DNA of 64,000 bases from Chlorella sorokiniana (taxonomy: Eukaryota > Chlorophyta > Trebouxiophyceae > Chlorellales > Chlorellaceae), in NCBI GenBank assembly GCA_025917655.1, contig CP084619.1:1-64000 (forward strand). The letters run 5' to 3'. The notes below the pieces were generated by a model, which saw nothing but the letters and a program-made list of their open reading frames with translations, was not told the origin of the DNA and did no database searches. Positions 27,963 to 32,100 of this stretch are shown piece after piece (within the stretch, counting starts at the first letter, position 1; every line of letters starts with the position of its first letter). Both the position numbers and the translations under genes were made by a program.

Positions 27963-29103
27963 TCAGGACCACCTGTCCAGTTTCAGCATCCACACGCCCT
28001 CATCGGCATCGTAGTGCACAAAGACGCCGCCCAGGCGCGCCGACGTCTCCAGAAGCGTGCCCCTGAACGCGTCCACCGTGCGGCGGTCGTGCCGCTGCCG
28101 CACAGCCATGCGGCGGAAGGTCAGCAGCGCGGGCTGGTTCAGGCCCTGGCCGGGCGGCGGCAGCGCACGCCTGCTGCTCATCAGCACCGCCGTCGTGCGC
28201 TGCCCCGCCGCCGCAAGGCCCAGCACGCGGCGGGTCGAGGCGTCGCCGCCGCCGCCGCCGTCGTGCGTGGAAGCCACATCACGCAGCCTCTCAGCCCCCT
28301 GCTGCGCACCCGCCGCAAGCTGCCGCTGTGGCTGCGGGGGCGGCAGGGCGGGGGCGCAGCGCCGCCGGGCGGCCGCCGCAGCATCAGCCGCACGTGGCCC
28401 TCCACCTGGCGGCGGGGCGGGTAGAGCTGCATGCTGCCGCGCTCGATGCTCACTACGCTGTCAAGATCCACACCCAGCAGGTCGACTGCGGGCGGTCGGG
28501 AGGCAGGCACGGAGGGGCGGCAAGGCGTGAACAGGTGGTGGCCCGGATGGGTGGCTGGGTGCTGGCCATGCGCGGCTGAGCAGCAGCAGCAGCACCATCA
28601 GCAGCTGGGGGCGGCAGCCCTGGGCGGGAGGGCTGCTGCACAGCTGGCTGACCGCACACTTCAGCACCAATGCACCCACGTTCAACGGACGGCCCATGCA
28701 CGCGCTCCCCCTGCCCCCTCCACCGCTCGGCACCACGACAACACACGCAGAGGCAGCCGGCTCACCCGGGTACAGGAAGCAAATTTCTCCCAGCTGTCGC
28801 CGCCCCACCACAAAGCGGTGCACGCGGGTCAGCTGCTCGTCACTCATGCGCTGCAGCCGCGCCAGACTTGGCTCCTGCGCAGGAGGGAGGGGCAGGTGGA
28901 GCGGTGTGATGGGTGATCAGGGTGCCCAAGCGTACAGAGGGTGCGAGGAAAGGTGTCAGTCTGCCGGCGGCGCAGGCTACGGCCACATTCTACGGGCTTC
29001 GGAGGCGTCAGTCTGGGGGAGAGCAAGCACACACAGCGTGCTCTCCCTGCCAGCTCACCGTGAAGTAGCCAGGCAGGGTGAGCCGCGGCGCGTTCTTGTT
29101 CAC
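27963..29103 (-). other. S59 (Nup98-type autoproteolytic) domain at the PKS C-terminus
   Basis: Exons 29509-29059, 28874-28766 and 28485-27963 splice in phase. The first carries the end of ACP-b ([19 protein letters not shown]), then an acidic and Gln-rich linker ([19 protein letters not shown]) and [14 protein letters not shown]. The second gives [20 protein letters not shown]. The third gives [20 protein letters not shown], an insert of about 70 residues, [19 protein letters not shown] and the end [14 protein letters not shown]. In Nup98 this fold cleaves itself before Ser in His-Phe-Ser and then holds the cleaved tail; it also docks partners. Here the triad reads Arg-Trp-Ser and Ser is the last residue, so cleavage is doubtful and a docking role is more likely. 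A one-base deletion relative to copy A near 28350 breaks the frame in the insert. Confidence 0.85.
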
Positions 29104-32100
29104 CGGCAGCGCCAGCAGGCGGGGCGGCAGCTGCACAGCAGGCGCGGGCTCGTGTGCAGCTGCTGCTGCAGCCGAAACCGCCGCAGCCTCCGTCGCCGCA
29201 TTGGGCTTCCGTTGCTCGTAGTCTGATGAGCTGGAGCGCCGCGGAGCCGAGCGGGCACCACTGGCCTGCTGCCGCTGCTGCTGCTGCTGCGCTTTGACGT
29301 TGTCCTCCTCCTCCTCCTCTGCTCCTTCTCCCGAGCTGCAGCTGCCTTCCTCCTCGCTGGTCGCAGCAGCCTCGGCAGCGCCGGCGGCAGGATCGGCGGG
29401 CTGCGGCGCCAGCGCCGCATCGGCCACCTGCCCCGTCAGCCACGCTGCCAGCTGCTCCACAGACGGGTAGTCGAAGAGGGCGGTGGAGGGCAGCCGCACG
29501 CTCAGCGCGCTGCAACAGGGGGAAGGGGGCAGCATGTCATAACCAGAGCTGAGCTGTGGGGGTTACTGGCGCCGCTGGCGGCCATGCAGCGCTCGCAGCA
29601 ACAACCCTCCAGCCCAGCAGCTGCCGCCGTTTGCCCGCATCCCCCCCCCCCCCCGTGCGCGCACACACACACACACACACATGCCCACTACCACCACCAT
29701 CACACACACACCCACACGCACCTGCCCAGCTCCTTGCGCAGCTCCTCAGCACCCAGCGAGTCCAGCCCCGCAGCCATGAGCGGCGCATCGGCCGCCACGG
29801 CAGCACCCTGCATCACGCGAGACACACAGGCCTCCACCTGCGGCAGGGGACAGACATGGGACAGCTTGCGTGAGTGGGGTGCAGGCAGGGAGGTGGGGCG
29901 TAGCCAAATCAGGACAGCAGGGCGAGAGCGCAGACAGCCACCATGCAGAAGGGGAGGGGGCACCAGCAAAGGACTAGCCGCCAGCAGCAAGCAAGGATTG
30001 GACGCTAAAGAAGACGGCCTCCACCCACCACGGCAGTCACAAGCTCCAGCTTGCGCTCCGGGCTCAGCGTCTGCGGCGGCGGCGGCGCTGCCACGCCGGC
30101 CACCCCCGATTGCTGCCCGCCCGCCGACCGGAGCTGCGCTGCCCGCGCTGCCCCCGCCGCGGCGCCCCCGCTGCCACGGGGCCCCTGCCGCCGGCCGCGC
30201 CTCTGCTGCCTCCGCCTCTGCCTCTGCACCTTGCTCTGCCGCAGGCTCTGCCGGGGCTGGGAGCAGGCTGACGACGTGTTGCGCGATCTGTAGCACCGAG
30301 GGGTGATCGAAAACCAGGGTGGGGGGCAGGGCGAGGCCGGTCAGCGCCGACACCTCACGCCGCACCTCCTCCGCACCTGCATGAAGGTGGGTGGTGGGTG
30401 GGTGGTGTGTGTGGGGGGGGGGGAGGGGGACTTTAGCAGAGATTGTCAAAACGAGGAGAGCCGGCAGGTCTGCCGCCAGGCCCAGCCCAACAGCGGCCCA
30501 CACACAAGCAAGCGGCACGGCGTGCTGCCAGCTGGCGTGGGTGTGCGCCGCCGTGCAAGCAGCGAGCAGGGCTTGCCGCCTGTGCGCATCTCGTCCCAGC
30601 CTGGCATGGCACAGGCATGCCCAGCCTGCCATCCCGACCCACACACTCCACCCACCAAGCGAGTTGAGGCCCGCCGCCATCAGCGGCTCGTCAGGCGCCG
30701 CCGCCCGGCCGAGCGAGTGCGCCACCAGCGCCGCCACCCGCTCGCCGAAATAAGCCACGCGCCCGTCTGGCGCCAGGGCGGCCCAGGCGGGCCGCGGCGC
30801 AGCCGCTGCTTGAGGCTTCTGCACCTTTGCCGCCGGTTGGCGCTCCAGCTTTCCGTTGCCATGTGCCAGCCACACCGCCACGCTGCCGTCTGCGGCGGCG
30901 TCGGCGGCGGCGCTCGCCTCTTCCTGCCCAGGGGCCGCCGCTGCCACGGCCGCCATCTCGGCATAAAAGGGCTTGCGCTGCCGCCCCGCCACCAGCAGGC
31001 GCTCCCAGGCCAGCGCGGCTGCCATGAGGGGCCGCCGCCGCCGCTGCCCGCCGCCAACACGACTGCTGCCTCCAATGCGGCCAGCCCGTGCGCTGCCGGG
31101 ATCGCCGCAATGCCCAACCGGCGCAGGTGCGCTGCGACGGCGGCATCCGCCGCCGCCATGCCCGCGCCGCCCCACGCCCCCAAGCGACGCTCGCCGCTGG
31201 CATCCCGCGCTGCTGCCACCCAGCGGCAGCAGCATCCAGCGCCGCGTTGGCCGCCGCGTAGTTGGCCTGGCCGGCGCTGCCCAGCAGGCCGGCGATGCTG
31301 CTGAACAGCTGCAGGCTGCCCAGGGGGCGCCAGCAACAAAGCGCGCCGCCAGGCTGCGTGCCGCCGTCGCTTTGGGGGAGATGGCGGCCCGCAGGCTGGC
31401 AGCCGTCGTGTTGGCCAGACGGGCATCCTGCAGCAAGCAAGCAGGGGCGTCAGCGGGGCTTATTAAACTCTTGGAAAACTTGTATGGACAACAATCAACA
31501 GGCACGCTTGCTGCCATGATCCACCGCAGCAGCCCGCAGCAGCAGCTCTCCCACCCTCAGGACGCCAGCCGCATGCACCACCCTGCCGACGCGAGCGCCG
31601 CCGCCGTTGAGCCCCGCCGCCAGCCCCGCAGCATCCGCCCCTGCCGCAGCGTCGCACTTGCACACGGCCAGCAGCGCTGTGCTGCCGTGCGCAACGGCGG
31701 CGCGCCAGCTGGCTCCCAGCCCGGCCTCCAGCGCAGCCAGGTCGACCCTACGGCCTAGCAGCAGCAGATGCGGTGGAAGCTGGCCGGCAGCTGCCCCAGC
31801 CGCCAGCTGCTGCGCTGCCAGCAGCAGCCCCAGCGCCCCCAAGCCGCCGGTGACGACGGTGGCGCCAGCTGACTTTGGCGCAGCGTGGCTGCGGCTGGTC
31901 GGCGCCGCCGCTGCGGCGGGCAGCAAGCGGGGCGCCAGGTAAGCGCCGCCCGCCAGGCACGGTCCAAACACGTCTTTGAACGGCAGTGGCGGTACCACAC
32001 TGCCCGCTGCTTGCTGCGGCAGAGCCGTGCTGTGGTCCCAACGCAGCTCAGCAGCCTCCAGAGCAGCCACCCTGGCCAGCCCTGCCAGCATGCCGGCACG

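Follow-up and report, generated by a model that had tools for sequence, protein, structure and literature searches.

A polyketide synthase of Chlorella sorokiniana ends in a Nup98-type S59 domain that lacks the self-cutting site

We analyzed the first 64 kb of contig CP084619.1 (here C2) of the green alga Chlorella sorokiniana, from a genome assembly of 38.8 Mb in 15 contigs (GCA_025917655.1); this whole stretch is referred to as the window. It carries the end of a polyketide synthase (PKS) locus that closes, behind its last acyl carrier protein (ACP), with a domain of the Nup98-type S59 peptidase family. Successive ketosynthase (KS), ketoreductase (KR) and carrier-protein matches line the minus strand over the interval between about 71 and 31 kb. 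By these family matches the upstream modules follow the order of a type I PKS on one strand, with most of their exon joins only modeled. The gene would accordingly encode the C-terminal portion of a multimodular type I PKS, in which the final module comprises a KS, a KR and two carrier proteins, ACP1 and ACP2. This 3′ end is present in two tandem copies, A and B, and the domains described here are those of copy B unless stated otherwise (Table 1). A plant-type CCCTAAA telomere repeat occupies positions 1–310 of the window, which places the PKS locus near the contig end.

The carrier protein and the S59 domain are joined within a single exon. As the initial annotation of this locus had described, the minus-strand exon 29509–29059 is open throughout and encodes without interruption the end of ACP2, an acidic linker and the start of the S59 domain ([15 protein letters not shown]); the corresponding exon of copy A has the same arrangement. 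This exon was joined to 28874–28766, 28485–28406 and 28199–27963 for a Pfam profile search. The spliced exons, within 29837–27963 (minus strand), match Nucleoporin2/peptidase S59 (PF04096) over profile positions 3–144 of 148, with E=1.7e-23 and 83.8 bits against a curated cut-off of 28.4, and also contain the PP-binding match of ACP2 (Table 1). An S59 match by chance is ruled out by this E-value. The nearest solved structures to the window domain are those of the Nup98–Nup96 and Nup145N domains (E=2.5e-11 and weaker), and an hhalign comparison of ten PKS-family proteins with an algal Nup98 gave E=1.3e-20 over 144 columns. The phenylalanine-glycine (FG) repeats and GLEBS motif that precede the S59 domain of Nup98 are missing from the PKS, where ACPs and the acidic linker precede it instead. 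Together with the relatives described below, the two Pfam matches bear out the claim that the PKS ends in a Nup98-type S59 domain, and at the level of sequence the ACP–S59 fusion is confirmed as real.

Table 1. Features of the duplicated PKS 3′ end in the window (contig C2)
Feature	Position	Strand	Evidence and remarks
Last ketosynthase: DTACSSS stretch 34891–34841 and C-terminal part 34442–34278	34278..34891	-	Ketoacyl-synt_C PF02801, E=2.4e-12 on C-terminal part
Ketoreductase of last module: N part from 31863, YAAAN part 31314–31189	31189..31863	-	PF08659, E=1e-13 (N part); second match C2:31177–31326
ACP1, exons 30758–30656 and 30376–30231	30231..30758	-	PF00550, E=4.1e-10 on joined piece; join read by eye
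ACP2, exons 29837–29722 and 29509–29437	29437..29837	-	PF00550, E=6.3e-10; GLDSLG intact
Acidic low-complexity linker, ACP2 to S59	29104..29436	-	Translation; dN 0.052, dS 0.151 between copies, less constrained
Nup98-type S59, exons 29103–29059, 28874–28766, 28485–28406 and 28199–27963 (or 28145–27963)	27963..29103	-	PF04096; ends KLDRWS-stop
Loop of disputed nature: an intron, or a low-complexity coding stretch with a frame change	28200..28405	-	Frame comparison; open loops in P0005–P0009 and P0089
Copy B, duplicated PKS 3′ end	27786..34808	-	86.9% identity with 13212–20266 over 7204 columns
Copy A of the duplication	13212..20266	-	Match begins inside ketosynthase; one further 85-base match beyond
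Second ACP2–linker–S59 end (copy A), exons 15280–15165, 14909–14462, 14321–14213, 13932–13853 and 13644–13408	13408..15280	-	PF04096, E=1.9e-23

To catalogue this architecture beyond the window, two protein searches were combined; they returned 12 and 17 hits, four of them in common, giving 25 proteins. The neighborhood could be read upstream of the S59 domain in 17 of these (P0001–P0004 and P0078–P0090), and in every one of the 17 Pfam places S59 and PP-binding in the same predicted protein. The fusion for which the initial annotation had proposed a search of other algal PKSs is therefore present in these relatives. Twelve of them hold two carrier stretches and five hold one, and a KR is detected in 10 of the 17; the relatives are predicted proteins, and an unbroken KR–ACP–ACP–S59 frame is read there from single predictions. 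P0001 originates from Micractinium tetrahymenae. P0089 (661 aa), from Chlorella sorokiniana, is deposited as a 'type I polyketide synthase' and has the best whole-domain identity to the window S59 (66%). Because the searches cover a limited protein length range and shared words, these counts say nothing on how frequent the fusion is. P0011, which is the window's own exon, and P0012, a JGI protein matching the copy B exon, were dropped from all counts. P0005–P0009, which lack the N half of S59, and P0010, which is cut short, were omitted from the tree and the column counts, and P0010 also from the C-terminus counts.

The ancestry of the domain was addressed with a midpoint-rooted tree of 43 S59 domains, comprising 18 from PKSs and 25 of the Nup98 type. 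For the latter, 31 of 65 hits were chosen, four without the anchor motif (P0072 and P0075–P0077) were skipped and three partial ones were removed, leaving 24 and the Nup98 of the same genome. The 18 PKS domains form one side of a branch with support of 100/99 that recurs in 100% of 200 bootstrap trees. The own-genome Nup98 groups with the other Nup98 rows, apart from the PKS clade, and P0065, a long-branched Nup98-type row, adjoins that clade (98/94). One old fusion would be the simplest reading of this topology. We infer the direction from Nup98 to PKS because Nup98 is universal, the root itself being placed only by midpoint. These data suggest that an S59 domain left the nuclear pore once and was then kept for a different task.

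Within the PKS clade the self-cutting site has been lost. The HFS motif, which supplies the catalytic His and Ser in Nup98, is found in none of the 18 aligned PKS domains, nor does any have His at P2; it is present in 23 of the 25 Nup98-type rows, a chosen set that was mostly excised by the HFS motif itself. Phe or Trp occupies P1 in 17 of the 18. Relative to P1, the PKS proteins end at P1 itself in eight cases, one residue later in six, two later in two, four later in one and 13 later in one (P0002); the window protein terminates in RWS-stop. Since 17 of the 18 extend no more than four residues past the old cut point, there is almost no tail to remove, and because the stop sits at about the position of the Nup98 cut, the PKS domain would be translated in a form similar to that of processed Nup98. 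The term 'autoproteolytic', which the initial annotation had applied to the domain, is thus not supported. Among all 65 Nup98-type hits, an H-F/Y-S/T match occurs in 56, one of them (P0074) off-site, and is missing from nine, of which at least P0062 and P0063 terminate in HF. Outside the PKS clade, the Nup98-type proteins P0033 (Effrenium voratum) and P0074 are likewise without HFS and stop at RF, and so have also lost the autoproteolytic site.

The two copies of the window allow the constraint on this C-terminus to be estimated. Between copies A and B, exons 1–4 of the ACP2–linker–S59 end are 95.7, 94.0, 93.6 and 88.8% identical and the three introns 82.0, 89.2 and 88.3%, exon 4 being no closer than introns 2 and 3. 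From few differences, non-synonymous (dN) and synonymous (dS) divergence amount to 0.007 and 0.189 for ACP2, and to 0.016 and 0.233 for the N half of S59 (two non-synonymous and 14 synonymous differences in 88 codons), with higher dN and lower dS in the linker (Table 1). This pattern shows, as far as sequence divergence can, that selection acts on ACP2 and on the N half of S59. Across its 237 bases the last exon reaches 99.6% identity, within a near-identical tract of about 300 bases of the kind left by gene conversion; as the identity extends to silent sites, recent conversion is indicated and this exon is uninformative on selection. No further S59-PKS copy was found elsewhere in the genome.

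Other parts of the duplication show irregularities. In the attachment motif of ACP1 (window 30671–30656), copy B has GLNSLG and copy A has GLDSLG, a D-to-N change beside the attachment serine. At C and G runs of the KR, near 31325 and 31180, the reading frame appears to slip; one slip is common to both copies and one is confined to copy B, and they are either assembly errors at homopolymers or real indels. The DTACSSS piece of the KS (34891–34841), searched alone, gave no Pfam match. A model of the whole PKS gene is rough, having missed the ACP1 join and gained spurious short exons, and its use was confined to locating motifs and supplying short queries. As regards a trans-AT organization, in which the modules hold no acyltransferase domain, no GHSxG motif was found in this model, by a motif scan that also overlooked known ACPs and with PF00698 unsearched.

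One segment of the S59 domain can be read in two ways. The exon from 28485 encodes [26 protein letters not shown], whereas [11 protein letters not shown] lies in another frame, with a different offset in copy A; in copies A and B alike, [16 protein letters not shown] is out of frame with [11 protein letters not shown]. The initial annotation had the next two exons completing the S59 domain in phase; the completion holds, but the phase is not exact as stated, the frame changing across 28405–28200 in both copies. An intron at 28405–28200 (CAG/GTGGAG to CAG/CGC) restores phase 0 in both, as does a shorter variant with the intron at 28405–28146 (to CAG/GGC), and under the two variants S59 scores 83.8 and 77.7 bits. 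Alternatively, the segment is a coding loop that carries one indel per copy. Among the 23 relatives that cover the site, the loop is long and open in six (P0005–P0009 and P0089), medium in one (P0001) and short in 16. We lean towards a coding loop with an indel or an assembly error rather than an intron, because the long-loop relatives include close kin of the window and because the assembly shows the apparent homopolymer slips in the KR. The S59 domain is complete on either reading.

The genomic context bears on what the domain has replaced. Thioesterases have a general terminal role in PKSs, and PF00975 has four matches in the genome, at C8 546561 and 548334 and at C1 4219150 and 4222381. 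All four sit behind the large PKS loci of C1 and C8, their membership in the PKS transcripts being a matter of position only. This arrangement agrees with the view of the initial annotation that S59 occupies the place expected of a thioesterase. On contig C2, an exon-by-exon scan in which seven of seven candidates were scored gave no PF00975 match. No release enzyme was detected by Pfam in 10 chosen open reading frames at 4.7–12.5 kb and 21–27.2 kb, where the sole match was a coiled coil below the cut-off. The own Nup98 lies on C1 and features FG repeats, a stretch identified by eye that we take to be GLEBS-like, and HFSKYGL. A Nup96 match lies behind it, and a Nup88 match on C7. At C8:521239–540305, PKS domain matches recur at a spacing of about 10,320 bases, their scores being identical, which reflects either a near-identical duplication of a module block or an assembly duplicate.

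What this domain does must be weighed against the possibility that it is not made as described. It is very improbable that the S59 exons belong to a neighboring gene, or that their join to the PKS is an assembly artefact: the apparent homopolymer frame slips in this assembly would speak for it, but the end of the ACP and the start of S59 share a single exon in both copies, and 17 relatives from other sources carry both in one predicted protein. The shared exon and the relatives together lead us to reject S59 as a separate gene. Decay is harder to dismiss, and still unlikely. The fusion might be ancestral and real while both copies are decaying here and yield no complete domain, a view to which the frame change in the 28405–28200 loop of both copies, the KR slips and the truncation of copy A in the KS would lend themselves; the constraint between copies on ACP2 and the N half of S59 speaks against it, as does the open frame that the intron reading gives in both. 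That the domain is a working autoprotease trimming a tail is scarcely credible. The family name and the Ser behind P1 in three of the 18 PKS domains, the window's among them, would favor it, but the motif count (0/18, against 23/25 in the chosen Nup98-type rows) and the near-absence of residues past the cut point (none in 8/18, at most four in 17/18) lead us to reject an active autoprotease.

We favor, at a probability of roughly 55%, the reading that a dead S59 protease has been reused as a C-terminal docking module. In the available text of PMC11148069, the vertebrate Nup98 domain binds the N-terminus of Nup96 or the propeller of Nup88 and so anchors Nup98, and in that of PMC5653651 the fungal Nup145N domain binds the Nup82 propeller. 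A docking platform is the simplest reading because a dead S59 domain sits behind tandem ACPs and because the Nup98 and Nup145N domains bind partners. The position of the thioesterase would have been taken by a domain descended from the C-terminal S59 of Nup98, and the fold that holds Nup96 or Nup88 in the nuclear pore would now keep a partner beside the two terminal carrier proteins. Our first guess at this partner is a stand-alone enzyme of chain release or transfer, which would replace the missing thioesterase, since no thioesterase was found on the contig; a nucleoporin would be the second choice, and the candidate anchors Nup96 and Nup88, both matched in the genome, count in favor of docking. 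Of the three roles that the initial annotation had offered, docking fits best, cutting off a tail fails with the loss of HFS, and release of the chain is conceivable with no known catalytic group. Several observations weigh against docking. No docking partner was identified. Nup96 begins with KYGL, and a search for the peptide KYGLxD gave four matches in the genome, one being Nup98–Nup96 itself, against six in a reversed control, and therefore yields no extra partner candidate. A single-sequence structure model reached a mean predicted local distance difference test (pLDDT) score of 34, with no usable fold. The Ser just behind P1 persists in three domains, the window's included, yet without His, and the absence of a thioesterase comes from a scan that a domain split over small exons can escape. 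Finally, E54, Y59 and H149 occur in all PKS domains (18/18) and in no Nup98-type row (0/25), possibly a sign of new chemistry instead of docking.

These last residues also bear on the two remaining explanations. The S59 fold may itself be a new chain-release or transfer domain in place of the thioesterase, an idea we consider unlikely. It has the same position as the thioesterase matches at the two other large PKS loci, and beyond the three PKS-specific residues R142 and K160 are present in 18/18 PKS domains and in only part of the Nup98-type rows; however, the ancestral catalytic residues are gone, and no Ser or Cys is invariant among the 18 PKS domains, the nearest being S27 (17/18), which is common in Nup98 too. 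We know of no acyl-transfer chemistry in the S59 family. Somewhat less improbable, though still well short of docking in general, is that the domain anchors the PKS at the nuclear pore or envelope through Nup96 or Nup88, as in Nup98. The shared profile, the Nup96 and Nup88 matches in the genome and the binding of both proteins by the Nup98 domain, as given in the available text of PMC11148069, are consistent with a tether, but E54, Y59 and H149 set the PKS clade apart, and V81, K88 and V155 (own-Nup98 numbering), invariant in the Nup98 rows (25/25), are variable among the PKS domains, a pattern that a change of partner would leave. More broadly, and more tentatively than docking as such, a nuclear pore fold may have given rise to a novel class of terminal domain in PKSs, one that organizes chain release or hand-over. 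It could do so with a partner drawn to the tandem ACPs, perhaps at the nuclear envelope, or through a chemistry of its own that uses the PKS-specific invariant residues.

The S59 domain is usually regarded as a component of the nuclear pore, and here it is the shared terminal domain of giant algal PKSs. This raises the question of how such PKSs release their product without a thioesterase, which a small ACP–ACP–S59 construct makes testable. No description of a PKS with an S59 or Nup98 terminal domain was found in the searchable literature, outside which most subscription journals lie. Within it the statement that no PKS with this ending has been described holds, and the terminal domain is new for described PKSs; the fusion is already visible in public protein databases. 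The multimodular type I PKSs of green algae (Chlorella variabilis, and PKS1 of Chlamydomonas), as presented in the available text of PMC4661987, resemble the present locus in their many KS, KR and ACP matches on one strand, their large size and their duplicated modules, and differ in their terminal domain, which is S59 here; that text names a thioesterase, a hydrolase-like end and a reducing domain, and neither nucleoporin nor peptidase appears as a word in the main text. The closest relative, the type I PKS P0089, shares with the window the two ACPs and the S59 domain, and a KR-end motif is recognizable in it by eye, without a Pfam KR match; it ends in DTWL. Its S59 end is not taken up in any paper found. 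Relative to the C-terminal S59 domain of Nup98 (PF04096, including Nup145N and Nup116), the PKS version retains a near whole-domain profile match, the GxGLN loop and the last strands, but it lacks HFS, stops near the old cut point, has no FG part ahead of it, is attached behind carrier proteins and forms a separate clade.

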